NCBI GenBank assembly: GCA_902774115.1
Contig: CACYHH010000009.1
Span: 1-43,999, forward strand
Length of the DNA stretch: 43,999 nucleotides
Reading direction: 5' to 3'
From: an uncultured Spirochaetales bacterium
Lineage (GTDB): Bacteria; UBP6; UBA1177
This document shows positions 8,217-21,751 of the stretch, in pieces. Position 1 is the first letter of the stretch; every line of letters starts with the position of its first letter. Below the pieces are notes generated by a model. That model saw only the letters and a list, made by a program, of their open reading frames with translations. It was not told the DNA's origin and made no database searches. The translations under genes and the position numbers were made by a program.

Positions 8217-9089
8217 TTATATTTCTTCGTAATAATACGAATAATCGATACCTTTCATAAACATTTCGCGGTCGTCGATTTTGTCGGTGAGGGCATTTCT
8301 CAGCAGCTCTTTGATTTTTGCAGGGTCGTAGTGGCTTTCCCTCATGGCGTCAAGATAGTCTTTCTTTCCGATCATGCTCCAGTCGACGCATTTTAAAAGG
8401 CGTTTTTTGAATATCATGTCAAGCCAGATGCGTGTGCTTCGGCCGTTTCCTTCCATAAACGGGTGAGCAACATTCATTTCGACATACTTGTCAACGATTT
8501 CATTAAAAGTGTTTTCGGGCATTTGCTCGATTTTTTTCAGCGCACTCTCCAGATATTCGGCGACACAAAACTTAAATCCGCCTTTACTTATCGTTTTTGT
8601 GCGGATCTGCCCCGCGAAATCGTACAAGCCGCCGAAAAGATAGGCGTGAATCTGACGTAATCCTTTTGCGGTTCCAACTTCAATTGTATCCATAAGCGAA
8701 CTTTCAAACAGCTTATATGCCTTGATTTTGCTTTTTCCGTCAATGGTTTCATCGCTGTAGGTAAACCACTGGATGAAAGGAGCTGACTTGTTGTTCGGAA
8801 AATTCTGGGCAAGTTTGATGATCTGGTCATAATCCATGACGTTCGCGAGTCTTCTTTTTCCGTCGGGCGCCATAAATTTGAACTGGGTAGTGACGCTACC
8901 CAGTTGATTGTTTTCCTTTTTAAGTTTTGATTTCAAGTATTTCCAATAGTTACGGTTCTTTTCGTAATCGTTCTGCTCGTTCAAAGCTCCGATGACATCA
9001 ATAACGCTGAACCACCACTTCGAATTTTCCTCGTCCCATACGGCTCTGACCTCGCGGTCATTAAAGAAACGGATTGAAATTTTGCTCAT
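8217..9089 (-). CDS. Bro-N/Fic fusion protein
   Basis: 290 residues with two domains. The N-terminal ~110 residues ([21 protein letters not shown] and so on) form a Bro-N domain clearly related to the N-terminus of the Bro-N protein at 11466-12335; Bro-N domains are phage antirepressor-type DNA-binding modules. The C-terminal part is a Fic domain with a full active site HPFMEGNGR at 209-217, expected to transfer AMP or another nucleotide moiety to a target. No (S/T)xxxE(G/N) inhibitory helix is obvious, so regulation may come through the Bro-N domain. The start is the ATG at 9089 with GGGAG upstream. The Bro-N part contains the DNA hairpin at 8881-8905. A toxin or phage-response role is inference. 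Confidence 0.85.
8881..8905. repeat. perfect hairpin inside the Bro-N/Fic gene
   Basis: Arms AACTGGGTAG (8881-8890) and CTACCCAGTT (8896-8905) enclose a 5-nt loop, TGACG. On the coding strand it encodes the Q-L-GSVTT-Q-F loop of the Bro-N domain. A hairpin of identical geometry lies at the homologous codons of the other Bro-N gene (12127-12151), with the same outer five pairs and different but complementary inner pairs. Confidence 0.9.
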
Positions 9090-9121
9090 TCGCAACACTC
9101 CCAAAAACCAAATCGTTGAAT

Positions 9122-9149
9122 ATTATAGTAAAGAAAATGAAAATTGAAA
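9122..9149 (-). promoter_or_regulatory. candidate promoter of the Bro-N/Fic gene
   Basis: Reading the minus strand, TTTCAA (9144-9149), a 16-nt spacer and a consensus TATAAT (9122-9127) lie about 30 nt before the ATG. The -35 is weak; the -10 is perfect. Confidence 0.5.
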
Positions 9150-9206
9150 GAAAAAACTTCTTTAATTCCGATTTTGATTACTTTTGATATCGGTGAACGA
9201 TAATCC

Positions 9207-10376
9207 TTATCTCACGCACCGAACAGATTCAAGAGTATACTCATTAGTACCGAAACTTGTTATCGTTCCCATGGCAAAATATACTACCCATACTTGGATG
9301 GAATCGGTATCATCTTGAAGCGAAGATGACCAAAAACGATCATTGTCTCCGAATTTACTGTATTTTCCGCTATTAAAAAAATCAGAACAACCAAGACCAC
9401 AGATGGTTGAAAAACTATTGTCACCATCATTATGTATATAATAGCATTCGTTAGATGATAAACACTGATCGGAGACTCCGCATTCTCCGCCAGTTTCTGT
9501 AGCCGGACAGTTTTGAATCAGGGTTCTAAGTTCACTGATTGTCGGCAGATGCCAGTCTGAATATCCGCAGTTAACCATATTATCGCAAAATTCTTTGGCC
9601 GCTTCCCAAGTCATTGATGATCTGGAATAAGACCATGTTTTATTATCTATTTCATAGCACATATCTTTGCATTTGCCGGTAGCAGAATCACAGCCGTTTT
9701 CACATGACAGATCGTGTTCCCAAAGACCGTTGTCGCAGTAATAAGAATGACCTTTAGAATAATAATCGGTACGACATTCGTATTTTCCGTCAATGCATTC
9801 TGAAGATTTGCACTTTCCTGTTGCCGAATCACATCCGTATTCGCAAGTTTCTTTAAAGTTCCAATGTGAATCATTGCAGACCCATGAAGCCCAGTCAATA
9901 CATTTGTATTTGCCGTTAGTGCAGCCGGAATCGTCAGGAATTTCGTGGTCATTATCACTGCTTTCAAAATCGCTGTCATTGCCGGAATCAGCGGCATCGC
10001 TGTTGTCAAAATCATTATCATCGCCGGAGTCAGAGGTATCGTTATTTTCAAAATCGCTGTCATTCTCAGTATCTGCGGCGATATCATTATCATTTGAATC
10101 GGTTTTGCATTTTCCTGTTGCAGGATCACAGCCGTTTTCACAACGGGCATCAAAAACCCATTCGCCGAAACTGTTGCAATAATGTGATTCTGAATCGGCG
10201 CACTTGAAATCTCCGCTTTTACATTCCGCTGAACCGTCGGCCTCGGAATCCTGCTCGTCAGAATCAGGCTTTTCGCCGTTGCCACTTGCTTCGCTCTTGT
10301 TTTGTGTGCTTCCGCCGCATGAAACGATCAGAAACACCGTTGCAAAAACAACCGAAATAACAAGAATTTTTTTCAT
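9207..10376 (-). CDS. Cys-rich DUF1566 lipoprotein
   Basis: A 389-residue predicted lipoprotein. The signal peptide ends in the lipobox IVSC with Cys20. An Asp/Ser/Asn-rich linker follows, including three 14-residue repeats (~97-138). Three Cys-rich modules ending in C-x2-GCD(P/S)ATGKCK surround and follow the linker. The C-terminal ~140 residues form a DUF1566/Lcl domain (WHLPTISELRTLI, FWSSS, VRCVR). Such surface proteins occur in families in deltaproteobacterial genomes; an outer-surface location is likely, function unknown. The ATG at 10376 is taken because GGAGGCG precedes it. The upstream leader and dyad (10377-10479) are shared with two LRR genes of another family. An orphan surface protein or one of many phase/regulon members are both possible. 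Confidence 0.85.
   Translation of the reverse strand: MKKILVISVVFATVFLIVSCGGSTQNKSEASGNGEKPDSDEQDSEADGSAECKSGDFKCADSESHYCNSFGEWVFDARCENGCDPATGKCKTDSNDNDIAADTENDSDFENNDTSDSGDDNDFDNSDAADSGNDSDFESSDNDHEIPDDSGCTNGKYKCIDWASWVCNDSHWNFKETCEYGCDSATGKCKSSECIDGKYECRTDYYSKGHSYYCDNGLWEHDLSCENGCDSATGKCKDMCYEIDNKTWSYSRSSMTWEAAKEFCDNMVNCGYSDWHLPTISELRTLIQNCPATETGGECGVSDQCLSSNECYYIHNDGDNSFSTICGLGCSDFFNSGKYSKFGDNDRFWSSSLQDDTDSIQVWVVYFAMGTITSFGTNEYTLESVRCVR
9963..10088. repeat. three 42-nt in-frame tandem repeats
   Basis: Three consecutive 42-nt units, starting near 9963, 10005 and 10047 with a TCAAAATC core, encode the acidic 14-residue linker repeats of the lipoprotein. Being a multiple of three, unit gain or loss would only change linker length. 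Confidence 0.75.
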
Positions 10377-10479
10377 CTTTTTCGCCTCCAATTTTCATCA
10401 TTTTTTTAAACACGGGAACTTTGCCCGACCTGAAAACGGATTGTAAAAGCCACCTACGACATATAGCGTCGTAGTGAAA
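10377..10479 (-). promoter_or_regulatory. dyad-leader element, copy 1
   Basis: The conserved core is 10427-10479 with dyad CTACGAC (10454-10460), spacer ATATAGC and GTCGTAG (10468-10474). On the minus strand the dyad is followed 8 nt later by a conserved TACAAT, a possible -10. From there to the GGAGGCG ribosome site the sequence closely matches the leaders of the LRR genes (copies 3 and 4). Copies 2-4 start at 13282, 16856 and 19713. Confidence 0.8.
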
Positions 10480-10565
10480 GATTTTTTGCAGTATTTTTGC
10501 TACAGTGATTTAAATGAAAAATTTCTTATCTAAAAATCAAAAATAAATTTTTTATACTTTTTTTC

Positions 10566-10592
10566 TTGACTTTTTAATCAAACATTTATAAG
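10566..10592 (+). promoter_or_regulatory. candidate promoter of the NYN gene
   Basis: TTGACT (10566-10571), a short 15-nt spacer and TATAAG (10587-10592). It would produce a ~105-nt leader containing a small ATGGATT/AATCCAT palindrome (10603-10617) and the terminator-like hairpin. The spacer is shorter than ideal. Confidence 0.4.
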
Positions 10593-10629
10593 AAGTCGCT
10601 GAATGGATTCAATCCATGCTTTTAACGGG

Positions 10630-10689
10630 CCCGTAATGAAAAAGCCGCCCCGAGATGAGGGCTGAGCCAAGATTACGGGTCTTTTTTTT
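10630..10689 (+). terminator. terminator-like hairpin in the NYN gene leader
   Basis: An 8-bp outer stem, CCCGTAAT (10630-10637) with ATTACGGG (10672-10679), encloses a GC-rich inner region in which GCCC and GGGC can pair. A run of eight T follows at once (10682-10689). No plus-strand gene lies upstream within the island, so it looks like a leader attenuator, or the 3' end of a small RNA, rather than a gene-end terminator. It resembles no riboswitch class I could recall. Confidence 0.6.
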
Positions 10690-10702
10690 ATGCGGGGTCA
10701 AA

Positions 10703-11368
10703 ATGAAAACAGCTATTCTTGTTGACGGCGGCTATTACAGAAAGCTTGCGAAGCACTATGCAGGCGAAAAAACTCCACTCGAAAGAGCTGCCGAACTCGA
10801 ATCATACTGCCGCAAGCATCTGCGGAACCGCGATGTTTTCACGATTGACGAAAAAAAACAGAAACATTACCAATATTCCGATTTATACAGAATTTTTTAT
10901 TACGACTGCGAACCTGTCGCGAAGAAGGTTTATCATCCGCTTTTAAAGACAAGCATTGATTTTTCAAAGCAGCCGACATTCAAGTGGATGAACGATTTCC
11001 TTGTTTGTCTGAAAGAAAAACGGAAATTCGCGCTAAGGCTTGGTTTTCTGGCGGCAGAAGAAGCCTTTTACACGCTTGACAACAGCATTCTCAAAAAATT
11101 CTTCAGAAAAGAAATAAGCGTTGACGACATAACGGAAAAAGACTTTTTTGTGACTATCCGACAAAAAGGTGTCGATATGAAAATCGGCCTTGATATCGCT
11201 TCGCTTGCTTACAAAAAGCAAGTTGACCAGATTGTTCTTATTGCCGGAGACAGCGATTTTGTTCCTGCCGCAAAACTTGCCCGCCGCGAGGGCATCGACT
11301 TTATCCTTGACCCGATGGGAAAAACCGTAAATTCAAATTTGTTCGAGCATATTGACGGATTGCGCTAA
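10703..11368 (+). CDS. NYN-domain (PIN-like) ribonuclease, LabA/DUF88 type
   Basis: 221 residues. The N-terminal AILVDGGYYRK has the first acidic residue of the NYN/PIN-like fold. The C-terminal half carries KGVDMKIGLDIASLAYK and the GDSDFVPAAKLARREG motif, supplying the remaining metal-binding Asp residues, so the active site looks intact. NYN proteins are predicted or shown RNases, often linked to RNA processing or defence. The start is the ATG at 10703 after GGGG; a longer reading from 10655 would run through the leader hairpin. It is the only plus-strand gene of the island. The terminator-like hairpin 13 nt upstream suggests conditional read-through or an RNA substrate relationship, which is inference. 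Confidence 0.85.
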   Translation: MKTAILVDGGYYRKLAKHYAGEKTPLERAAELESYCRKHLRNRDVFTIDEKKQKHYQYSDLYRIFYYDCEPVAKKVYHPLLKTSIDFSKQPTFKWMNDFLVCLKEKRKFALRLGFLAAEEAFYTLDNSILKKFFRKEISVDDITEKDFFVTIRQKGVDMKIGLDIASLAYKKQVDQIVLIAGDSDFVPAAKLARREGIDFILDPMGKTVNSNLFEHIDGLR

Positions 11369-11436
11369 AATTATAAGAGTCTGCAAAAAGAAGAGTGTGA
11401 GACTGAAGAATAAATAAGTTTTTTAAGTTCCGAATG

Positions 11437-11461
11437 AGTTGTACGATTTTTCCGGACAACT
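11437..11461. repeat. degenerate copy of the Bro-N gene hairpin
   Basis: This 25-nt segment, 5 bp beyond the Bro-N stop codon, matches the internal hairpin at 12127-12151 at 19 of 25 positions, including the central CGATTTTT. It still folds: GAGTTGT (11436-11442) pairs with ACAACTC (11456-11462), then one mismatch and two further pairs. It is not a T-tailed terminator on the minus strand. Confidence 0.65.
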
Positions 11462-11465
11462 CTGG

Positions 11466-12335
11466 CTATTTCGCTTCCTCGTCTTCGTCAAAAACAGAGG
11501 CTTTTGTTTCGATAAGCCGGTCGTTGCTTAGGGCGTTTGAAGGAGAAATAACCTTTTTACCTGTTTTTTTCTCAAGTTCCGCTCTTGCATTTTTTGCGAT
11601 AGTTGCACCGTCAACAGCATTTTGAATGTGGTCTGTGAAGTTTTGAGGATCTCTTGATTCTGAAATTTCTTTTGTCGAAAGCTCTGCAAGCATATTCAGA
11701 ATAAGTTCCTGATTTGTCATGTTGTCGCGCAGGTTTTCTTTCTTCAACCCTTTGAATTCCTTGTATTCCTTAGCAGTTTTGCCTGCCCATGTCTTGTAAA
11801 TTATGTCGGTCAGGGTCGCGAACTGAATGCCGTCCTGCAATCCGTGCTTTTTCCATTCATCGGTCAAATCTTTTCTGATTTCCATGCTTTTCAGCCGCTG
11901 GTTTATCCAGCTTTCGGAATATCCGAGCTGACGGTAGTTGAACAGTGCGCGGTTGATTGAAATTTCGGGATCTTTGATTTCGTCAAGCCGTTCTCTTGCG
12001 ATCTGTGCCATCCAAAGTTTGAAAGGTTCTGCTTTCGGTGACGGAACGGACTGAATCAGGCGGAAAAGCTGCTCAGTTGTCATGCAGTCGGTAGGTCGCA
12101 TTTTTCCGTCTGCGGCAATCATTTTGAACTGTCCGATTTTTTCGGACAGTTGACTTCCTTCAGCAATCAGTTTGTTTTTCAAGTCATTCCAGTATTTTCT
12201 CGGTCTGTCTGAATCAGTCAAAACGGCGATGACATCAACCACCGAAAAATACCATTCTTCTTTCTCTTTGTCCCAGATTGTGCGGACCTGCCGCTCTTCA
12301 AAAATCTTGATTTGAGTGTTTTTTACTTCTTCCAT
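11466..12335 (-). CDS. Bro-N domain protein (DinD-like)
   Basis: A 289-residue Bro-N family protein. Residues ~1-115 form the Bro-N DNA-binding domain (RQVRTIWDKEKEEWYFSVVDV, SDRPRKYWNDLKNKL). The rest follows the pattern of the DinD-like group of prophage-associated Bro-N proteins (KAEPFKLWMAQIARERLDEI, GYSESWINQRLKSMEIRK, EYKEFKGLKKENLRDNMT). The length is normal for that group; no enzymatic motif is present. The start ATG has GGAGG 6 nt upstream. The gene carries the perfect hairpin 12127-12151, has a degenerate copy beyond its stop, and shares its N-terminal domain with the Bro-N/Fic fusion. A DNA-binding regulator or anti-phage role is likely but not proven. Confidence 0.85.
   Translation of the reverse strand: MEEVKNTQIKIFEERQVRTIWDKEKEEWYFSVVDVIAVLTDSDRPRKYWNDLKNKLIAEGSQLSEKIGQFKMIAADGKMRPTDCMTTEQLFRLIQSVPSPKAEPFKLWMAQIARERLDEIKDPEISINRALFNYRQLGYSESWINQRLKSMEIRKDLTDEWKKHGLQDGIQFATLTDIIYKTWAGKTAKEYKEFKGLKKENLRDNMTNQELILNMLAELSTKEISESRDPQNFTDHIQNAVDGATIAKNARAELEKKTGKKVISPSNALSNDRLIETKASVFDEDEEAK
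12127..12151. repeat. perfect hairpin inside the Bro-N gene
   Basis: Arms AACTGTCCGA (12127-12136) and TCGGACAGTT (12142-12151) enclose a TTTTT loop. The coding strand reads Q-L-SEKIG-Q-F, the same protein loop as in the Bro-N/Fic gene. Outer AACTG/CAGTT is shared with 8881-8905 while the inner pairs differ. Confidence 0.9.
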
Positions 12336-12451
12336 GTTTTAACCTCCAAAATAAAAGCACAATACTTTACAATATAATCGAGAAATATCAAATTTAAATT
12401 GAATAAAAAGTTTAAGGAATAGAAACTTTACTGAATATTAAGATGTGTAAG

Positions 12452-13213
12452 CTAAGAATTGCGTTTGACGGCATCTTTCATTTTTTCAAGTGCTTCAGTT
12501 GCACGACTGTATCCAATGTGGAATTTTTCCATCAGGATTTTGGCTCCGTCCGGTCCAAAAATATAATCGACCATATCTTTGTAAAGCGGATCTTCGAAAG
12601 TTGTTGCAAGAGGTTCCTCGGTATTCAGGATTAGATACGATGCGTGTCTGTCTAATTGGTTTTCAAGGCTGAAAGCGAAGATTTCATCGATATTCGACTT
12701 TATAAGCCCGGTGAGGACATTCCATGACGGATTTTGAGCTGTCATAAAAACATTAAAACCTGCCGCTTTTCCTTTCTGTGCAATTACGATGATTGAATGT
12801 TCAACACTATCAAATGCCATAACATCTTCCAGATCGTCTATTATGATCTTGATAAACGGCATTTTCTTTTGACCGGCAGCTTCTTTGTTGTAATCAATAA
12901 TATCTTTGACAAGTGCCTGAGCCAGCATTTCAAAGTGATGATCCATTTCGGCAACCATCTGTTCGAGAACTTTTGCTGCTTCGAGGCTGTCTGTGATCCT
13001 CGGCATCAGCAAACGCGGGTCGTTGTCGTATTTGCCGAGTTTATTTTTTGTGTCGATAATTACGAGTTTGAGCTCATCGGAAGGAACTTCGGCAAAAGAT
13101 TCTATAAAAATATCTATTGCCTTCTGTTTTTCTTCTTCTTTCCCGAAAGTCAGAAGATTTTTAGGTGCCACAAAAATTGATTTGAGATCTTGTTTACGAA
13201 TGATGTTAAGCAT
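12452..13213 (-). CDS. miniature FtsK-like protein without Walker A (copy A)
   Basis: 253 residues aligning by eye along the FtsK/SpoIIIE motor and gamma regions. KLVIIDTK and DPRLLMPRITD correspond to the segments after Walker A. FIKIIIDDLEDVM (~119-131) matches the Walker B strand, with DD for DE. IAQKGKAAGFNVFMTAQNPSWNVLTGLIKSNI matches the [26 protein letters not shown]-like core. The C-terminus, EKFHIGYSRATEALEKM, matches the FtsK gamma winged helix. Where FtsK has GxTGSGKS this protein has TFGKEEEKQ, so nucleotide binding is probably lost. No membrane segment. The start is the ATG at 13213 after GGAGGAAAAC. Dyad copy 2 lies upstream. Probably a DNA-binding or hexamer-forming pseudo-ATPase; role unknown. 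Confidence 0.75.
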   Translation of the reverse strand: MLNIIRKQDLKSIFVAPKNLLTFGKEEEKQKAIDIFIESFAEVPSDELKLVIIDTKNKLGKYDNDPRLLMPRITDSLEAAKVLEQMVAEMDHHFEMLAQALVKDIIDYNKEAAGQKKMPFIKIIIDDLEDVMAFDSVEHSIIVIAQKGKAAGFNVFMTAQNPSWNVLTGLIKSNIDEIFAFSLENQLDRHASYLILNTEEPLATTFEDPLYKDMVDYIFGPDGAKILMEKFHIGYSRATEALEKMKDAVKRNS

Positions 13214-13281
13214 GTTTTCCTCCTTGTTTGTTTGATCCTTCATTTTTTCCTCAGAATTTAAAAAAGCCGGATAATCTCATC

Positions 13282-13334
13282 GACCTGAAAACGGATTGTA
13301 AAAGTCCGCTACGACATATAGCGTCGTAGTGAAA
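13282..13334 (-). promoter_or_regulatory. dyad-leader element, copy 2
   Basis: The dyad CTACGAC (13309-13315), ATATAGC, GTCGTAG (13323-13329) and the TACAAT are identical to the other copies. Between element and start codon the leader differs from copies 1, 3 and 4. A CCAATAACTTT block just beyond (13359-13370) is shared with the region of copy 3 and with both DUF262 promoters. Confidence 0.8.
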
Positions 13335-13418
13335 ATTTTTTGGGCTATTTGCGGAAATTCCAATAACTTTAAAGCGGTTTTTTGTTTTTTAAGAAGGATG
13401 AATCAGGTAAGGAGATTT

Positions 13419-15131
13419 TTAATTGTTCTCAAATTCATTTTTTATGCCTAGTTCATCGCAGAGTTTATCTATGATCAATTTTTGTCGCTCGTTCACAAAT
13501 TTCACAAAATTTTCATCTGTTAGCTCAATGTCCGTAGGATATAGGAGTTCTTTTTTTCTTTCCTCAGTAATATTTTTAGCCCAATCAGATGCTGACATAC
13601 CGTTTTTATGTGAATTTTCAGCTGGAGTTAATAATTCTAAATTACCAATGCTATTCATTAAATCTTTTTTGTATGGTTTTAATGTTTCTTTTTCGAAATC
13701 GTTTTGTGGGAAAATGTGATCTTGACTATTTTCCCCATGTTTAGCATAGGTTGCAAGAAATAATATTAGTTGAGTATTTTTACCTTGGTAAACGGAGTTC
13801 TTTACTAGCTTTTCTATATAGTTTCGTTTAAGTTGCTTTGAATTATCAATAGATAAAGGAGAATTGTTGGTGTTTTCTCTATATTTTTTTAAAGTTGTAT
13901 CGCTAGATCCGCTGAATTCACGAGAAAGTAGTGCTTTTGAAAGCCATTTTATCAGCATGGTTCTTTTTTCTTCATAATCTGAATCTGAAGCATTAACAAA
14001 GCATTCTTTGTTCAATTCATTTTTTTGTAGATAATAAGCAATAGGTAATAAAGCATTGGAAGAAGTGACAGTTTTTTCTGAAAAATTATATTGATCTAAT
14101 AATTCATAGACCGTGGTTAACGATTTTTCAATACTTTTCCAGTTAGAACTAATTTTGTCAAGGTTTGCTTTTTCAAAATTTTTTACTTCATAACGTATGT
14201 CCAAGTCTTCAGTAAGCATCAGACAAGCTTTTAAAACAAAATCTTTTTTAGTTTTTACTGCATTATTTTTTTTAGGCAGTCTCTTATTCATTTTATCTAC
14301 GAATTTAGAAATAGTTTCTCTTGCTCCATTGGGCTGAAACAATGTTGAAGCTGATTCCATAAAAGAAAGTAACAAATCTGCTTTTTCGAGCTTAACTCCA
14401 CTATCGTTCAATCTGACAAATATTTCCAAAATACTATCGTCAAAAGGACCTTTAACTGTTTCATAATTCATTTCTTTTTCGCGCACATTTTTCCATAAGA
14501 GTTCCAACTTTTCTTCTATACACTTTTTTACTGTTTCTGTCTTGATTTCATCGGGATTATCTTTGCTATTAAATAATTCGGCTGTAAATTTTTTTGAAAA
14601 TTCTTCTCCGTTTTTACTGTTGTTTGTTATTATGTTTGAGACTTTAAACCAGAAATGCTCAGCATCTTTCTTTTCAGCTTCTTCTCTTGTTTTAAATTCA
14701 AATTGAAACGATACGCTGTCCACAGATTCTTTGTTGGGCGTATGCAGCAGATTCATATATAAATATTTTTTGCCTGTGCTATCTTCAATATATCCAATTG
14801 AATTTGTTGATATAAATAACGAAGTTAGACGCTGTTGCCCATCTAAGACCAAGCTGTCGACAGCAGAATTTTGAATAGATATCGGACCCGTTTCATTTTG
14901 GCCATCTATTTCATAATGATCTAAGAATTTATAGGCGAGTATATCTTTTTCAATATTTTGAGGTTGCCAGAGAACAATTTGACCTATTGGATATCCCTGC
15001 ATAAGTGAATCGAATAATTTTTCAATTTTTCTGCTTTTTTTGTTATTCAGCCAAACATAATCGCGTTGAAAACTAGGTAAATACCATCCATTATTTAATT
15101 TTGATATTAAATCTTTTAGTTTTATTTGCAT
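13419..15131 (-). CDS. DUF262 / HNH protein, GmrSD-like (second)
   Basis: A 570-residue protein. The N-terminal DUF262 domain (ParB/Srx-like fold) has FQRDYVW at 21-27 and the signature DGQQR at 97-101. The C-terminus has an HNH/DUF1524-type motif, QDHIFPQ (DHIFP 471-475), followed by IGNLELLTPAEN. This pairing is that of GmrSD-type modification-dependent nucleases and related phage-defence effectors; DUF262 uses NTP hydrolysis and the HNH domain cuts DNA. The two DUF262 proteins of the island share only the motifs, so they are not a recent duplication, yet their promoters are near-identical. The start is the ATG at 15131 after GGGAGGG. The gene is distinctly AT-rich, consistent with acquisition. 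Target DNA and modification dependence cannot be read from sequence. Confidence 0.85.
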   Translation of the reverse strand: MQIKLKDLISKLNNGWYLPSFQRDYVWLNNKKSRKIEKLFDSLMQGYPIGQIVLWQPQNIEKDILAYKFLDHYEIDGQNETGPISIQNSAVDSLVLDGQQRLTSLFISTNSIGYIEDSTGKKYLYMNLLHTPNKESVDSVSFQFEFKTREEAEKKDAEHFWFKVSNIITNNSKNGEEFSKKFTAELFNSKDNPDEIKTETVKKCIEEKLELLWKNVREKEMNYETVKGPFDDSILEIFVRLNDSGVKLEKADLLLSFMESASTLFQPNGARETISKFVDKMNKRLPKKNNAVKTKKDFVLKACLMLTEDLDIRYEVKNFEKANLDKISSNWKSIEKSLTTVYELLDQYNFSEKTVTSSNALLPIAYYLQKNELNKECFVNASDSDYEEKRTMLIKWLSKALLSREFSGSSDTTLKKYRENTNNSPLSIDNSKQLKRNYIEKLVKNSVYQGKNTQLILFLATYAKHGENSQDHIFPQNDFEKETLKPYKKDLMNSIGNLELLTPAENSHKNGMSASDWAKNITEERKKELLYPTDIELTDENFVKFVNERQKLIIDKLCDELGIKNEFENN

Positions 15132-15161
15132 ATGTTTCCCTCCCTCTAAAAAAAACACGGC

Positions 15162-15189
15162 ATTATATTACACAAAAAACTATTTCCAA
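15162..15189 (-). promoter_or_regulatory. duplicated promoter before the second DUF262 gene
   Basis: Minus-strand TTGGAA (15184-15189), a 16-nt spacer and consensus TATAAT (15162-15167). The ~34 nt across this promoter are identical to those at 18921-18953 before the other DUF262 gene. Confidence 0.75.
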
Positions 15190-15229
15190 TAACTTTAATT
15201 GGAAAAATTTCAGCTAAGTTGCGGAATTG

Positions 15230-16054
15230 TTAAGAAGGGAAGGGAGAGTTGTTTTTGACGGTTTCCTTCATTATTTTCAATGCGTTGGCTGCGCGGTGGT
15301 AGTCGATATTGAATTTTTCCATAAGCATTTCGTGAGCGTTTGCAAAAAGAAAATCGACCATTTCATTGAAAAGCGGCTCTATTCCGAGTTTCTCCTGAAC
15401 TATTGCCAAATAACTGGGGCTTTCAAACAAGGCATAAAGACAGGAACATGCGTCAAGGTGTATTTTAAAGAATTTAAAATTGTCTTCATCGTCGAGTCTC
15501 GGGGTAACTATCGTCGCCTCGATGTTCGCTCTGATGCGTCCGAGATTATTTCTTCCGCTCCTTATGTTGCGGATCGCGACAAAAACATGGATGCCGCATG
15601 ATTTTCCTTTTTGCGCGATACTTGCGATGGAGATTTCTGCACTTTCATCATCCAGTGCTATGATATCATCCAAATTGGTTACGATGATGTTGATGAAAGG
15701 CATTTTGCTGGACGGATCAGCCTTCTGATTGTATTCCGCAATATCGCTGACATGATTTTTGTCCAACATTTGATAATGTTTTTCCATCTCTGAGACTAAA
15801 AGTTCAAGCGTTTTTACTCCTTCGTGAGCATCTGTGATCCTCGGCAGGAAGAGGTGAGGATCGTTTTCGTACTTTTTGAAAGTGTTTCTCGTGTCGATGA
15901 GCACGAATTTGACTTCATCCGGAGCTTTTTCGGAAATGGATTCCAGTAAAGCTTCGATGCAGGTCGCATTGTCTTCATCTTTCCCTGAAATCAGGAAATT
16001 TTTGGGTTCGTCAAAAATCTTTTTAAGGTCTTTTCTGTAAATGATGTGAGTCAT
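15230..16054 (-). CDS. miniature FtsK-like protein without Walker A (copy B)
   Basis: A 274-residue paralogue of copy A. FtsK-like segments are VKFVLIDTRNTFKKYENDPH, then LPRITD; EMEKHYQ and DIAEYNQK; IASIAQKGKSCGIHVFVA; and the gamma-like EKFNIDYHRAANALKIMKE. The Walker A position reads ISGKDEDNA and the Walker B position IIVTNLDD, so both nucleotide motifs are lost here, one step further than copy A. An insertion of ~20 residues follows the core. The ATG at 16054 is preceded by GGAGG at 5 nt; a longer reading to 16150 would overlap the LRR gene and has no ribosome site. It lies 61 nt after the LRR gene and probably shares its transcript, with a DUF262 gene next downstream. Confidence 0.7.
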   Translation of the reverse strand: MTHIIYRKDLKKIFDEPKNFLISGKDEDNATCIEALLESISEKAPDEVKFVLIDTRNTFKKYENDPHLFLPRITDAHEGVKTLELLVSEMEKHYQMLDKNHVSDIAEYNQKADPSSKMPFINIIVTNLDDIIALDDESAEISIASIAQKGKSCGIHVFVAIRNIRSGRNNLGRIRANIEATIVTPRLDDEDNFKFFKIHLDACSCLYALFESPSYLAIVQEKLGIEPLFNEMVDFLFANAHEMLMEKFNIDYHRAANALKIMKETVKNNSPFPS

Positions 16055-16115
16055 AATGTCCTCCGTTTTAGTTGTTGTTTTGATCTGGCTGGGAATTCCG
16101 AAAAATTTCAGCCGT

Positions 16116-16802
16116 TTACTCCTCATCGAAATCATATCCGAGTTCTGCAAGCCGTTTTTTGCTTTCTTCCGATATTTTCGGGCAACCGCAAAAGACAGCT
16201 TTTCCGATTTGTGTGACGGAATCGGGAATCGTTATGGATATCAGATCCTGACAGCAGCAAAATGCGTAATCTTCTATCTTTGTAACTGAATTCGGAATGA
16301 CCACGGATGTCATGTCGCAGTTTTCAAAGGCATTTTTACCGATAGTTGTCACTGTATCAGGAATTATCGTGTTTGAACAGCCTTTGATCAAAGTGTTTGT
16401 GGCTGTTTCGATTATTGCGTTGCAGTCTTCACGCGAATCGTATCTCGGATTGTTTTTGTCAACGGTGATCGAAATCAGTTCGAAGCAACAGTGAAAAACA
16501 TTTTCGCCGATTTCTGTCACGGAATCCGGAATGATTACTGATTTCAGCTGGGCGCAATTGATAAATGCGAAGTCTTCGATTTTCTCGACTGAATTCGGAA
16601 TAACTACAGAAATCAGGTGGTCGCACCAACGGAATGCACTTTTGCCAATCTTTCTAACTGAATTCGGAATAACCACCGAAGTCAGTTCTTCGCAGTCTTC
16701 AAACGCATTTTCTCCGATTTCTGTCACAAAATCAGGTATAACCACATGGTTTCTTCCATTGTTTAAGAGTTCTTTTGCTATTTTTTCATCCAAAACCGTC
16801 AT
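16116..16802 (-). CDS. BspA-type leucine-rich repeat protein (first)
   Basis: 228 residues made of about seven ~23-residue LRR_5 units of the form VVIPxSVxxIGxxAFxxCxxLxS, interrupted once by a ~30-residue segment (VDKNNPRYDSREDCNAIIE). There is no signal peptide or membrane anchor, unlike many BspA surface proteins, so a cytoplasmic binding role is likely. The C-terminus is a short charged tail ending YDFDEE. It is a close paralogue of the gene at 18978-19667, with very similar DNA. The start is the ATG at 16802 after GGAGGCG. Dyad copy 3 and a leader shared with the lipoprotein gene lie upstream. Confidence 0.85.
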   Translation of the reverse strand: MTVLDEKIAKELLNNGRNHVVIPDFVTEIGENAFEDCEELTSVVIPNSVRKIGKSAFRWCDHLISVVIPNSVEKIEDFAFINCAQLKSVIIPDSVTEIGENVFHCCFELISITVDKNNPRYDSREDCNAIIETATNTLIKGCSNTIIPDTVTTIGKNAFENCDMTSVVIPNSVTKIEDYAFCCCQDLISITIPDSVTQIGKAVFCGCPKISEESKKRLAELGYDFDEE

Positions 16803-16906
16803 GTACGCCTCCAAATTTCATCATTTTTTAAAACACGGGAACAGTGTTCTGTCCCACCTGAAAACGGATTGTAGAAGCCCGCTACGACATATAGCGTCGT
16901 AGTGAA
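16803..16906 (-). promoter_or_regulatory. dyad-leader element, copy 3
   Basis: Conserved core 16856-16906 with CTACGAC (16882-16888), ATATAGC and GTCGTAG (16896-16902). The leader from the conserved TACAAT to GGAGGCG closely matches that of the lipoprotein gene (copy 1), including CACGGGAAC and an A/T-rich TTTCATCATTTTTT segment. Confidence 0.8.
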
Positions 16907-16988
16907 AAATTTTTTGGTTTATGTGCAGAAATTTCAATAACTTTAATGAGGTTTTTGGGGATTTTTGGGGGGATCTTCGGAGTATGTT

Positions 16989-18833
16989 TTAGTTATCGTT
17001 GTTTAAGTCAAAAAGCTTCTTAAATTCCTTTACAAGTTTACCGGTTCTGGCGGTTATGTTGTCAATAGTCCATTTTTCTTGGGAAACAACATCTTCATTA
17101 AGTTTTAGACCGTTTTTATAACCGATATCCTTCCCGTCTTTTTGACGATTTTTTTTCTCCTCAAAGGCTTTGTTTCCCAAATTGGAGTTGTATCCCGTAA
17201 TGGTTAGGTTGCCTAAGGTGTGAACATAGTCGTTTTGGATTTTTTTTGCTTTGTCATAATCTCCACCAGCAATCATGTCTACCCAATATTCGGGTATATT
17301 TGCACCTTCAGGAAAAATGTGTTCAATAGTCCATATATATTTTTTGTTTTCCCGAGACCAAAGATCGACAATATGTTCTCTGGTGTTGAAATTTTCTTCG
17401 TAGAAGCAAAGTAAAAATCTGGTAACATCTGCATTTTCGTCGTAAACAGGACCTTTGAGTTTCTCTTCAAATTCAGAGTCTATTGCACTTTTCGATATTA
17501 GAACTCTTTTGATTTCCTCATAAACCTCATTTCCTCTCTTTGACTTTAATGAAGTATTTAATTCCATGAAAATTTTGGTCAGTTTGTTCGTAGCCGGTAT
17601 ATCTGTCAAATTGCGTCGAACGAAGAATTTTGTAAGAAAATTAATAATTTTTATGAAAACATCATTGGTTATTTCAAGTTCTTCCTTTTTTGAAAGAATA
17701 TAGAGTAATGAAATATATGATGGAGTGCCCTGAATTCGCTCCAAGTTCAACAAGGCGTTTTTGACTTTTTTATCAGTTGCATCATCATTGTTTATTAAAA
17801 TCGAATAGTTTTCAGATTCTTTTTCAAGATTGTTTAGAAATGATTCCAACCCACCATCAATCATCTTTTCGTACAAATCCAAAAGTGTAGTTCTTGTTGC
17901 GATTGCACCTAAACGATACTTGCCATTCTCTTCTTTCGCAGAAGTTGGTCCCTTCAGTTCGTCTCTGAATGCATTGTAATACTGACGGAAAAAACGTTCC
18001 TGGATATTGACATCATCCGTCAAATTATCAATGATTCTCAACCATTGTTCATGGCATTCGTCGATTTTTCCAGACTTCTCTGCTTTGGCGATCATGTAAT
18101 TTTTAATGAGATCCATTGCGGAAAGGGGGATTCCTCTATTGTTTAACGATTCAAAAAGCATATAGGCATCTTTGTTGTTGCCGACTTCAATGGCAACCAT
18201 AACGGCAGAACAGAATTTTTTTACAAATCCAAAGTAAGTATCAATGGAATCAAGTTCAGGATCTTCTTTTTGCCGCTCGGCAACTTCTGCATCTATTCTA
18301 GAAATAAAATGACGATAAGCAGAGTAAATTTTTCGATTGCCGTAGTACTGAATTTTAGGTTTATCTTTCAGCAGATTCAACTCATTGCACAGAATGCAGA
18401 AGTAATCATCGCAATTCTGGTTCTGATTTTGCAGAGTCAAAACAGGGGTCGGAATTTTGTCTTTTTCTTTGACTAAGCGTTTTTTTAAGTCAATAAAATC
18501 AGAGATTTGTTCATCTGTCATTCTGTTTTTGAGCTGTAATAATTTCTTATATAATGCCGCTAAAAGGAGCGACATTGTTGTTAGTCTTTGTTGCCCGTCA
18601 ATCACTTCCAATGTAGTAAATGATGCCATACCGGCATTATCTCTGCTGATACAGATAAAGGAACCTAAAAAATATCCGTTATCATTTGTGATTATATCAT
18701 CAAAAAGGAGATCCCACTCCTTTTGTCCCCAAGTGTAAGCTCTTTGATATTTGGGGATAGTGTAAAAACGGTTTTTACTTGCCTCGTTTGAAAATATCTC
18801 AGCAATACTATGCGCTTCAGTCAAAATAATCAT
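16989..18833 (-). CDS. DUF262-DUF1524 protein, GmrSD-like (first)
   Basis: A 614-residue protein with the full GmrSD layout. The DUF262 domain has IPKYQRAYTW (26-35) and VIDGQQRLTT (DGQQR 79-83), a middle helical region with FESLNNRGIPLSAMDLIKN, and a DUF1524 HNH nuclease with WTIEHIFPE (EHIFP 504-508), LGNLTITGYNSNLGN and KAFEEKK. Family members such as GmrSD and BrxU restrict phage DNA carrying modified bases, using NTP hydrolysis by DUF262 and cleavage by the HNH domain; both active sites look intact. The ATG at 18833 follows AAGGAGG at 8 nt. A 15-codon upstream ORF (18847-18894) ends in that ribosome site. Low GC and its promoter copy suggest horizontal origin. Confidence 0.88.
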   Translation of the reverse strand: MIILTEAHSIAEIFSNEASKNRFYTIPKYQRAYTWGQKEWDLLFDDIITNDNGYFLGSFICISRDNAGMASFTTLEVIDGQQRLTTMSLLLAALYKKLLQLKNRMTDEQISDFIDLKKRLVKEKDKIPTPVLTLQNQNQNCDDYFCILCNELNLLKDKPKIQYYGNRKIYSAYRHFISRIDAEVAERQKEDPELDSIDTYFGFVKKFCSAVMVAIEVGNNKDAYMLFESLNNRGIPLSAMDLIKNYMIAKAEKSGKIDECHEQWLRIIDNLTDDVNIQERFFRQYYNAFRDELKGPTSAKEENGKYRLGAIATRTTLLDLYEKMIDGGLESFLNNLEKESENYSILINNDDATDKKVKNALLNLERIQGTPSYISLLYILSKKEELEITNDVFIKIINFLTKFFVRRNLTDIPATNKLTKIFMELNTSLKSKRGNEVYEEIKRVLISKSAIDSEFEEKLKGPVYDENADVTRFLLCFYEENFNTREHIVDLWSRENKKYIWTIEHIFPEGANIPEYWVDMIAGGDYDKAKKIQNDYVHTLGNLTITGYNSNLGNKAFEEKKNRQKDGKDIGYKNGLKLNEDVVSQEKWTIDNITARTGKLVKEFKKLFDLNNDN

Positions 18834-18846
18834 TTTGTTTTCCTCC

Positions 18847-18894
18847 TTAATTATGAGTAAACTTACCAAAAAAAATTCTAGGTTCTTCGCTCAT
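18847..18894 (-). CDS. possible 15-residue leader peptide
   Basis: A short reading frame (MSEEPRIFFGKFTHN) with a strong GAGGGAG site, whose TAA stop merges with the AAGGAGG of the DUF262 gene. It may couple translation of the downstream gene, or be the remnant of another coding start, since the same GAGGGAG serves the gene itself in the other DUF262 locus. Confidence 0.35.
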   Translation of the reverse strand: MSEEPRIFFGKFTHN

Positions 18895-18921
18895 CTTTTT
18901 CTCCCTCTAAAAAATCCCGCC

Positions 18922-18949
18922 ATTATATTACACAAAAAACTATTTCCAA
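18922..18949 (-). promoter_or_regulatory. duplicated promoter before the first DUF262 gene
   Basis: Minus-strand TTGGAA (18944-18949), a 16-nt spacer and TATAAT (18922-18927), identical to the promoter at 15162-15189. An AAAAATTTCAGC block upstream is also shared. Confidence 0.75.
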
Positions 18950-18977
18950 TAACTTTTATTTTAAAAATTTCAGCAGC

Positions 18978-19667
18978 TTACTCCTCATCAAAATCATATC
19001 CGAGTTCTTCAAGTCGTTTTTTGCTTTCTTCCGATATTTTGGGGCAACCGTGAAAGGCACATTCTCCGAATTGTGTTACAGAATCGGGTATCGTTATGGA
19101 TATTAGATCCTGACAGGAGCAAAATGCGTAATCTTCTATCTTTGTAACTGAATTCGGAATGACCACGGATGTAAGTCCGGCGCAGTTTTTAAAGGCACTT
19201 TGACCGATAGTTGTCACGGTATCAGGAATTATCGTGCTTGAACAGCCTTTGATTAAAGTGTTTGTGGCTGTTTCGATTATTGCGTTGCAGTCTCCGCGGG
19301 AGTCGTATCTCGGATTGTTTTTGTCAACGGTGATCGAAGTCAGTTCAAAGCAATTGTGAAAAGCATATGCGCCGATTTCTGTCACGGAATCGGGAATAAC
19401 TACTGATTTCAGCTGGGCGCAACAGAGAAATGCTCTTTCGCCGATTTCTGTTACGGAGGCAGGAATAACCAGTGATTGCAATTCGATGCAACCGCAAAAT
19501 GCTTGTTCTCCGATTTTCTCAACTGAGTTCGGAATAACCACCGAAGTCATTTCTTCGCAGTCTTCAAATGCATTTTCTCCGATTTCTGTCACATAATCAG
19601 GTATAACCACATGGTTTCCTCCATTGTTTAAAAGTTCTTTTGCCATTTTTTCATCTAAAATTGTCAT
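18978..19667 (-). CDS. BspA-type leucine-rich repeat protein (second)
   Basis: 229 residues; a close paralogue of the LRR protein at 16116-16802, with the same N-terminus (MTILDEKMAKELLNN), the same VDKNNPRYDSR interruption and the same RLEELGYDFDEE tail. The middle repeats differ in surface residues (GCIELQS, CCAQLKS), so the concave binding face varies while the framework is kept. No export signal. The start ATG at 19667 has GGAGGCGGAC upstream. It lies between dyad copy 4 and the first DUF262 gene, and the pair could be transcribed together, although a second promoter lies between them. Confidence 0.85.
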   Translation of the reverse strand: MTILDEKMAKELLNNGGNHVVIPDYVTEIGENAFEDCEEMTSVVIPNSVEKIGEQAFCGCIELQSLVIPASVTEIGERAFLCCAQLKSVVIPDSVTEIGAYAFHNCFELTSITVDKNNPRYDSRGDCNAIIETATNTLIKGCSSTIIPDTVTTIGQSAFKNCAGLTSVVIPNSVTKIEDYAFCSCQDLISITIPDSVTQFGECAFHGCPKISEESKKRLEELGYDFDEE

Positions 19668-19765
19668 GTCCGCCTCCATTTTCAGCATTAAAAAACACGG
19701 GAACTGTCCCCCGACCTGAAAACGGATTGTAGAAGTCCGCTACGACATATAGCGTCGTAGTGAAA
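19668..19765 (-). promoter_or_regulatory. dyad-leader element, copy 4
   Basis: Conserved core 19713-19765, with CTACGAC (19740-19746), ATATAGC and GTCGTAG (19754-19760). It starts 13 bp after the WYL regulator's stop codon and drives towards the LRR gene. The leader again has CACGGGAAC and a Shine-Dalgarno like copies 1 and 3. Confidence 0.8.
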
Positions 19766-19778
19766 TTTTTTTGAAAAA

Positions 19779-20744
19779 TTATTTACAGTATTTGTTGTAG
19801 ATCATTTTGATGTGGTCAAGCCACTCTTTGCGCAGCGACGGGGGAGAAACTATCTCGCATTCAGGCGAATATCTCATTACCCGGGCAATGATCTCACTGT
19901 GGTATTCGCCGATCGGAAGAGTGATCTCGAGACATTTTTTCCCGTCAACAACAGTTTCTTTCGTGACCTGGTCTTTGTGCCATTTCTGCTTAAGGAAAAA
20001 ATAAGATGCCGGTTCAAAAATGCGGATGGTCGCCGTTTCCGTTTTTACAGACGGGTATATTCCGAAGGTGCTTCCGACGAATTTGTCGATCTCTGATTTT
20101 GTGTAGATTTCGGAAAAAGGTTCTTCAGTGATGCGGCTTTCTACAAAGCGGGAAACCAGAAACTCGCGAAGGCCGTGCCGCTTGTGGCAGTAAGCCAGGA
20201 GATACCATTTCCCTGAATAATTTATGAGCTTTATAGGTTCTATCGCTCTCGAAGTTATGTCGCCTTTTGAATCGAGATACTTTATTTCAAGCCGCACTTT
20301 CAAGAGCAGTGATTCCAGAATATTTCTGAAATTGGTCAGCTCCATAGTGTCAAGATCGGAAGAATCGTAAGAAATTTTATCAAGCAGCTCCTCAAATTCC
20401 GCCGGAATGTAACTTGAGATTTTTGAAAGAATTTCCTTGGAAATAACAGGCACATAAGGGATTCCGTTCAGATTCATCGAATCACTCAGCTGCTTCACGA
20501 AAATATAGTAGAAAACAGCGTCGTCGAATGAATCGAAAAGCATCTCGAAAGGTGATTCGTAAACATAACCGCCCAGCTCGCGGCTGTATTTTATCGGCGC
20601 GGAAAGATAGTCCCGCATATATCCGATGTCCCGAAGGACCGTGTCGATATGGACTTCAAAACGTTCCGCAACTTCCTGCCGCGTAACAAAACCGCGCGTC
20701 TTGATCCTGTGGTTCATGTAAGCAATTCTTTCTAAATTCGCCAT
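19779..20744 (-). CDS. HTH-WYL transcriptional regulator
   Basis: A 321-residue regulator. The N-terminal winged helix has TRQEVAERFEVHIDTVLRDIGYMRDYLSAPI then GGYVYE. The middle WYL domain has AIEPIKLINYSGKWYLLAYCHKR. The C-terminal WCX-like extension ends in LRKEWLDHIKMIYNKY. WYL proteins sense nucleic-acid or nucleotide ligands, and members such as BrxR and CapW repress phage-defence loci by binding inverted repeats. The start ATG at 20744 follows GGAGAG. Its stop is 13 bp from dyad copy 4, making it the best local candidate to bind the CTACGAC dyads; that link is inference. Its own start region carries no dyad. Confidence 0.88.
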   Translation of the reverse strand: MANLERIAYMNHRIKTRGFVTRQEVAERFEVHIDTVLRDIGYMRDYLSAPIKYSRELGGYVYESPFEMLFDSFDDAVFYYIFVKQLSDSMNLNGIPYVPVISKEILSKISSYIPAEFEELLDKISYDSSDLDTMELTNFRNILESLLLKVRLEIKYLDSKGDITSRAIEPIKLINYSGKWYLLAYCHKRHGLREFLVSRFVESRITEEPFSEIYTKSEIDKFVGSTFGIYPSVKTETATIRIFEPASYFFLKQKWHKDQVTKETVVDGKKCLEITLPIGEYHSEIIARVMRYSPECEIVSPPSLRKEWLDHIKMIYNKYCK

Positions 20745-20787
20745 TTTACTCTCCAAAAAAAACAATAATATAATCTAATGAATTTAG

Positions 20788-20816
20788 AAAAACCTTGCAA
20801 GAAAACACGTTGCAGG
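20788..20816 (-). terminator. Rho-independent terminator of the HTH-Fic gene
   Basis: On the minus strand CCTGCAA (20810-20816) pairs with TTGCAAGG (20793-20800) with one bulge, and a five-T run follows (20788-20792). It lies 18 bp past the Fic stop. Confidence 0.6.
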
Positions 20817-20833
20817 CGGTTTTTTCGTGATTT

Positions 20834-21715
20834 TCAATATTTGATCCTGAAATAATCGAGCAGTGCTTTGTAGTCATCCTGCGCCGAAAGGCATGTGTCA
20901 CGCAGAAATGCGTTGTGTTTTCCCCAGTTCTGGATCCCGCGGTAATAATAAAGGCGCAGATTCTCTGTGATTATGAACGGGACGATTCCCGATTTCAGGC
21001 ACTGCCAGAACATGAGAAGTCTGCCTACTCTGCCGTTTCCGTCCTGGAACGGATGGATCCGCTCGAACTGCATATGAAAATCGAGAATATCGTCAAATTT
21101 AACCTCTTTCAGCGCGTTGTAAGCGGCAAGAAGCGTTTTCACACGGCTGTGGACATCCTCAGGTAATGTTGTTTCCTCGAATCCGATTTCATTCGGGAAA
21201 CGCTTGTATGCGCCGACCGCAAACCATGATTTGCGGCTATCCGAAGTCGATTCCTTCAAAATCGAGTGAAGCTGCTTTATGTGAGATTCTGTGATTTTTT
21301 CTTGAGCGTGGTCGATAACAAAGTCTATACACCTGAAATGATTGACGGTTTCAATAATATCATCGACATTTATGTTTTTCGAGGCGAAACCGAGCGTGTT
21401 GGTCTCAAATATAAACCGCGTCTGATCTTTTGTGAGGCGGCTCCCTTCGATGTGGTTAGAACTGTATGTCAGTTCGACCTGCGTCCTGTGGTAGATCCCG
21501 CCCTTTAGTTTGGATTCCTTCTGCTCGCGTAGTGCGGTCAAAAGCGGAGTTGTCTTTGTTTTCGTGCGTTCAGGCAGAACCGCATCTGAGGGAATATTCC
21601 ACGTTTTTCCGACAAGAAACGCCCCTTCCATCTTGCCGGTCGCGCAGTAGTTGCGGAGTGTCCTTGCGCTTAAGCCGGACTTTTCGGCGAACTGAGCCAC
21701 AGACAAATATTCCAT
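20834..21715 (-). CDS. HTH-Fic protein with built-in inhibitory helix
   Basis: 293 residues. The first ~50 residues form an excisionase/MerR-like helix-turn-helix (SVAQFAEKSGLSARTLRNYC). The Fic domain has the intact active site HPFQDGNGR at 221-229. A class II inhibitory motif, S-x3-E-G (S86 to G91 in SSNHIEGSRLT), lies N-terminal, so AMP transfer is probably self-restrained. Family members modify protein Tyr, Ser or Thr residues. The ATG at 21715 has AGAGG 5 nt upstream; the GTG at 21721 would lie inside that site. A good promoter and a palindrome lie upstream, consistent with autoregulation by the HTH. It forms the right edge of the island. Confidence 0.88.
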   Translation of the reverse strand: MEYLSVAQFAEKSGLSARTLRNYCATGKMEGAFLVGKTWNIPSDAVLPERTKTKTTPLLTALREQKESKLKGGIYHRTQVELTYSSNHIEGSRLTKDQTRFIFETNTLGFASKNINVDDIIETVNHFRCIDFVIDHAQEKITESHIKQLHSILKESTSDSRKSWFAVGAYKRFPNEIGFEETTLPEDVHSRVKTLLAAYNALKEVKFDDILDFHMQFERIHPFQDGNGRVGRLLMFWQCLKSGIVPFIITENLRLYYYRGIQNWGKHNAFLRDTCLSAQDDYKALLDYFRIKY

Positions 21716-21751
21716 AAACACCTCTTAAAACCGAACAATCTATCGGCAAGA

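Follow-up and report, generated by a model that had tools for sequence, protein, structure and literature searches.

A copy of the in-gene palindrome behind the stop codon of a Bro-N gene: a candidate extra binding site of the Bro-N family

The window considered here, a 43,999-nucleotide stretch of DNA from an uncultured Spirochaetales bacterium, contains a Bro-N gene (11466-12335, minus strand; 289 aa) whose coding sequence harbors a palindrome, or dyad, and a second, imperfect version of this dyad lies just behind the stop codon of the same gene, at 11437-11461 (no strand assigned). This raises the question of what a second copy might be doing outside the gene. An earlier note on the sequence had suggested an operator or a recombination site, for example one from which the loop encoded by the internal palindrome could be exchanged by templating. 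We prefer to see in the flanking dyad an additional site for binding by Bro-N family proteins, one that has partly decayed, and assign this reading a probability of about 55%.

The flanking dyad (AGTTGTACGATTTTTCCGGACAACT) is situated between the stops of the convergent Bro-N and NYN genes, and the spacer separating it from the Bro-N stop codon (11466-11468) is 4 bases, in place of the 5 bp given previously. As claimed in the earlier note, it matches the internal palindrome of the Bro-N gene (12127-12151, minus strand; AACTGTCCGATTTTTTCGGACAGTT) at 19 of 25 positions, with the runner-up place within the window reaching 17, and it retains the inner core CGATTTTT; its resemblance to the hairpin of the Bro-N/Fic gene is likewise as slight as had been stated (just 8/25). 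In a 340 kb sample from the same genome, which served as the background for this match, a single 25-mer among the 679,184 on both strands attains 19/25. A search of the 2.5 Mb genome with the family-consensus pattern, allowing up to 3 mismatches, recovered four sites, namely three within Bro-N genes and the flanking dyad itself, while the reversed control yielded none. The flanking copy is real and its similarity is beyond chance. It also displays the features by which the Bro-N dyad family was delimited in the present data, namely a palindromic span of 25 bp, outer arms reading A(A/G)(C/T)TG, and half-sites of the TCCG or TACG type. Nevertheless, two earlier descriptions of it need to be qualified. 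Its palindromic form is imperfect, with 8 of the 10 arm pairs intact and two broken. Further, the internal palindromes of two paralogues, C2:401560 (TCCGA type) and C1:471235 (TACGA type), resemble it more (23/25 each) than does the palindrome of the adjoining gene (19/25). On the gene strand the half-sites of the flanking dyad read GTCCG and GTACG; hence, it combines one TCCGA-type and one TACGA-type half-site and fully fits neither type. The former type is that of the window Bro-N gene and the C2 paralogue, and the latter that of the C1 paralogue, meaning that the genome itself encodes Bro-N proteins of both types combined in the flanking dyad.

The internal dyads provide the context for interpreting this hybrid. 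The one in the window Bro-N gene is of the TCCGA type, codes for the peptide QLSEKIGQF and has perfect 10-bp arms. The Bro-N/Fic gene (8217-9104) possesses an internal dyad in the same register (8881-8905, minus strand), again with perfect 10-bp arms, which is of the GGTAG type and accompanies the helix YWKYLK. The genome has seven Bro-N matches, and in its Bro-N-type genes, Bro-N/Fic included, the same codons hold palindromes of differing sequence; the same pattern was seen in 80 homologues from several phyla, a set assembled without dyad-based selection. For quantitative analysis we used the 109 non-redundant genes (of 123) that display a dyad in the common register along with the YW motif, a set that is therefore enriched for dyads by construction; all 109 aligned homologues, chosen for a detectable dyad, bear a palindrome at the same codons. 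In these 109 genes mean dyad pairing is 10.9/12, as against 6.75 under synonymous codon redraw, and every gene lies at or above the 95th percentile of its own redraw. Across 33 distinct dyads 95.6% of cells pair, compared to 63.7% in shuffles and 24-39% with a slid partner, and the covariation of the arms is 0.838 as opposed to 0.244 in shuffles, though such covariation and the counts for the code described below are inflated by the shared ancestry of the genes. The joint change of both arms greatly exceeds what the amino acids could explain. Dispersed hairpins with stems of at least 10 were not commoner than in shuffled sequence (4 versus 3 in 384 kb), and two of these four belong to Bro-N genes.

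Each dyad is laid out as two 7-bp half-sites flanking a short centre, and, leaving the dyad's own codons aside, the best predictors of the half-site (-8 to -2) are four columns of the helix. Numbered around a conserved Tyr-Trp, these are columns -1, +2, +3 and +6 (positions 47, 50, 51 and 54), which constitute one face of the helix and carry 1.3-1.6 bits of corrected mutual information on the half-site; protein columns beyond the helix module carry at most 0.46 bits. The simplest rule concerns X1: where it is Arg, the base at -8 is C in 31/31 genes, and where it is any other residue, this base is G in 78/78. This base occupies the third, wobble position of a codon, and Leu, Val, Thr and Ser codons are found on either side of the rule. 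The rule is valid across different helix backgrounds (RV, RK and RW versus KV, NK and KW). Likewise, among pairs with less than 45% C-terminal identity, the same X1X2 goes with an identical 7-base half-site in 85/111 cases, compared to 44/2018 for different X1X2. Applied to the flanking dyad, one half-site fits the helix of the window gene (Lys47, Asp51) and the other that of the C1 paralogue (Arg at -1).

The Bro-N protein is recovered by PF02498 with 46.7 bits (curated cut-off 25.6), and combines a winged helix-turn-helix with a DinD/DdrC-like C-terminal part. Its AlphaFold model (mean pLDDT 88) displays a helix-turn-helix (residues 32-40 and 45-58) followed by a two-stranded wing (68-73 and 79-86). 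The second of these helices (PRKYWNDLKNKLIA; codons at 12162-12203, minus strand) is the putative recognition helix, the codons of the wing, residues 68-86, occupy 12078-12134 (minus strand), and the internal dyad encodes the loop, as well as the onset of the first strand of the wing. Among the best Foldseek matches of this model DdrC is the sole solved relative by fold. Since the palindromes covary with the recognition helix they look like Bro-N binding sites, an interpretation also favored by DdrC, the solved relative, being DNA-binding and by a report on the phage protein ANT8, in which the Bro domain is given as its DNA-binding part (PMC4257102). Given the helix-to-half-site code and the winged helix-turn-helix of the model, it is probable that every Bro-N gene carries the DNA target of its own protein within its coding sequence.

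Taken together, these observations suggest a mechanism in which Bro-N winged-helix proteins would recognize a family of palindromic sites, probably binding them as dimers. The internal site directly follows the stretch coding for the recognition helix, whereby specificity and site would be inherited together. The internal dyad could then function as an intragenic operator in autoregulation. The flanking dyad, for its part, is or was potentially a second site of the same system, which is now decaying or might be suited to a mixed dimer. Against this reading speak the two broken pairs of the flanking dyad and its incomplete fit to either type, as well as G009, which has a flanking TCCGA dyad but yielded no TCCGA-type Bro-N gene, though this draft may be incomplete. 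Further, dyads of a gene's own type hardly ever occur upstream of Bro-N genes, so that the site is no ordinary promoter operator. The earlier proposal of an operator or recombination site is supported in outline by the helix covariation and by the coincidence of the dyads with synteny breaks at two loci.

Comparison with related genomes shows that the flanking copy belongs to a wider set of free dyads. At the window's locus, dyads occur in the orthologous place in three related species (G002, G003 and G011), where they are perfect or nearly so: those of G002 and G003 are TCCGA-type dyads directly 3' of the Bro-N stop, and that of G011 is perfect and lies at a contig end. The second locus of the genus with free dyads 3' of Bro-N lies beside a methionyl-tRNA synthetase-like gene (metG, assigned by eye), and bears a TCCGA dyad in G009, a TACGA dyad in G012 and a mixed dyad in G014, in each case with a GTCGCA dyad following at a 30-bp period. 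GTCGCA is the type of the internal dyad of RhuM-family genes, and a GTTTCC dyad in G014 is identical to the internal dyad of another RhuM gene. The absence of flanking copies near other Bro-N genes, which the earlier note would have taken as a sign of chance similarity or of a simple terminator, is true of 3' copies outside the genus, where the 3 kb around Bro-N genes yielded no convincing free dyad on the 3' side, but not of the genus itself, which has six such loci; three possible free 5' dyads occur near Bro-N outside it (L194, L202 and L116). A row of four dyads (GTTACA, TCCGA, TCCGA and GTCGCA, the last three with a 30-33 bp period) was seen in G006 (L228:2461-2596, contig C26), in a single open frame whose product would look like a repetition of Bro-N loop peptides, with no Bro-N gene there. 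A free hybrid TCCGA/TACGA dyad was also observed in two species (L183 and L187, 1501-1525), some 130 bp ahead of a small gene whose product begins MQIRPVSDLRN and which, by eye, encodes a putative Phd-type antitoxin.

These free dyads bear on the alternative that the flanking copy is a functionless remnant of an earlier Bro-N gene, or of an internal dyad that was duplicated or recombined. The copy in the window is degenerate relative to its perfect or near-perfect orthologues, and the flanking type seldom equals that of the neighboring gene. Further, the free dyads of G006 and G002:C3 retain pieces of Bro-N coding context, which implies that free dyads can come from broken genes. For the window copy itself, leftover coding sequence was considered and rejected, as the similarity ends at the edge of the palindrome. 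However, several species retain perfect free dyads in orthologous places, and the flanking dyads of G009 and G012 differ by a symmetric double change (TCCGA/TACGA) that preserves the palindrome, both of which speak against a functionless relic. We regard a mere remnant as rather unlikely, albeit the alternative with the most in its favor.

A further possibility is that dyads are recombination junctions, at which modules and island cargo are joined or cut, whether by a recombinase or passively through short homology or hairpins. The synteny of the window with G002 and G003 breaks at 11429-11432 (no strand assigned; from BLAST segments), 5-8 bp from the flanking dyad, owing to some 940 bp of sequence that include the NYN gene, and resumes at about 10489. 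In the Bro-N gene of G002:C3 the deletion extends exactly from the internal dyad to the first dyad of the array, with everything in between missing. Within the genus the parts to the right of the internal dyad occur in new combinations, but the codons of the helix remain linked to their dyad; next to metG, variable restriction genes are bordered by free dyads in arrays. Dyads thus coincide with rearrangement ends at two loci and in one set of gene mosaics. These are, however, few independent events, no recombinase was identified, and protein binding accounts for the helix-to-dyad code, which recombination by itself does not, rendering this proposal improbable. The rearrangements at dyads may reflect short homologies as opposed to an active recombinase. 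Both the remnant and the junction readings overlap with that of a decayed binding site. As a separate observation, a 61-bp repeat, 92% identical between its two window copies (10426-10486 and 13281-13341) and containing a palindrome (CTACGACATATAGCGTCGTAG), has further copies near the Bro-N loci of related genomes.

The location of the site between two convergent stop codons would also allow a hairpin in either transcript, and hence a role in RNA, as a hairpin or as a terminator of transcription, where the Bro-N and NYN genes end; the non-Watson-Crick cells in the core of the internal dyads, five G-T and no A-C, would be in line with RNA. A test of RNA against DNA by this G-T versus A-C strand asymmetry was dropped on account of the small number of cells. 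Against such a role, 11437-11461 holds no terminator-like site and is followed by no T tract, so that the simple terminator entertained earlier lacks support, two of its pairs are broken, the same sequences are found inside genes, and double-stranded DNA is indicated by the covariation with the recognition helix, making this very improbable. Least credible of all is the templated exchange of the loop proposed in the earlier note: paralogues about 90% identical do differ in their palindrome, and the flanking copy, if translated in frame with the gene, would yield a similar peptide, but the specificity helix is coded about 20-45 nt upstream of the palindrome and is absent from the flanking copies, the helix-coding part stays with its dyad, so that a swap confined to the dyad would disrupt the code, and the anticipated joint change of paired copies is contradicted by G002, G003 and G009, with internal GTTACA against flanking TCCGA, G012 being alone in its agreement among the six loci. 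Thus, the flanking copy looks like a spare putative site at a rearrangement edge and not like a template for loop swapping.

Initiator proteins that bind sites within their own gene are known from phage lambda O, with ori-lambda in gene O, and from the rep genes of RepA_N plasmids. As in Bro-N, a DNA-binding domain and its type-specific target are there co-inherited in one coding sequence; however, those sites are replication iteron arrays, whereas Bro-N genes have a single dyad, lie near restriction and defence genes and gave no sign of a replication role at their dyads. Operators of classical autoregulating repressors are palindromic as well and are located at the promoter, in contrast to the Bro-N site within the coding sequence and its extra copy behind the stop codon. 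Phage antirepressors (PF02498), including ANT8, and the pneumococcal Bro protein share the N-terminal domain of Bro-N, and the available part of the report on the latter two describes no in-gene palindrome or helix-to-site code (PMC4257102). A search of viral contigs for relatives of the window's Bro-N and Bro-N/Fic proteins recovered none. Deinococcus DdrC (PDB 8u0g, 7qvb and 7udi) has the closest solved fold, and the sequence similarity of DdrC and DinD to Bro-N is weak and lies in the C-terminal part. The dinD gene of E. coli also has an in-gene palindrome: in K-12 (L277:2434-2463) it is a 30-nt imperfect palindrome (GACCATTTCGAGGAGATCCTCGATATGGTC) at the DDHFEEILDMV stretch of the coding sequence. 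In PADLOC the Bro-N protein matches the candidate family PDC-S13 (5e-130) and Bro-N/Fic matches PDC-S04 (2e-161), families whose definitions are without palindromes and for which the library gives no mechanism. The window region 8217-21721 has many neighboring defence candidates in PADLOC, namely PDC-S13, PDC-S04 (two genes), HEC-05, HEC-06/Orf5, WYL and SspH-like ATPases.

Comparable palindromes were noticed in other families. Nearly all of 22 RhuM-family genes with a recognized motif (L247-L275) have a palindrome, variable in sequence, that follows the N-terminal helix (LF...HLKNI) and precedes the next conserved block, and here too helix and palindrome seem to covary. A gene assigned by eye as DUF1016/YhcG-like (L225:2352-2415) has two tandem palindromes 39 bp apart in its coding sequence, and in contig C1 of the same genome (about 662.5 kb; L241:1210-1525) adjacent RhuM-like and ORF6N-like fragments each have a palindrome. 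Searches of the open-access literature found no paper linking Bro-N, RhuM, DinD or ORF6N with an in-gene palindrome, and the literature searched gave no description of the DNA targets of Bro-N, RhuM or DinD proteins.

The larger result, probable on the comparative evidence from sequences, is a self-target inside the gene with a readable code. A more far-reaching synthesis, which we put forward tentatively as somewhat less likely than otherwise, is that Bro-N and RhuM genes, and probably also DinD, ORF6N and DUF1016 genes, form a widespread class close to restriction and defence systems, whose members hold in their coding sequence the palindromic targets of their own DNA-binding domains, linked by such a code, while free copies, some in mixed-type arrays of 30-bp period, mark cargo junctions as shared binding or recombination sites that shape islands. 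Proteins of the Bro-N, RhuM and DinD kinds abound, and a code readable from sequence alone would name the targets of a great many of them; free target copies at island edges would, in turn, connect such companion genes with the way in which defence islands are rearranged.
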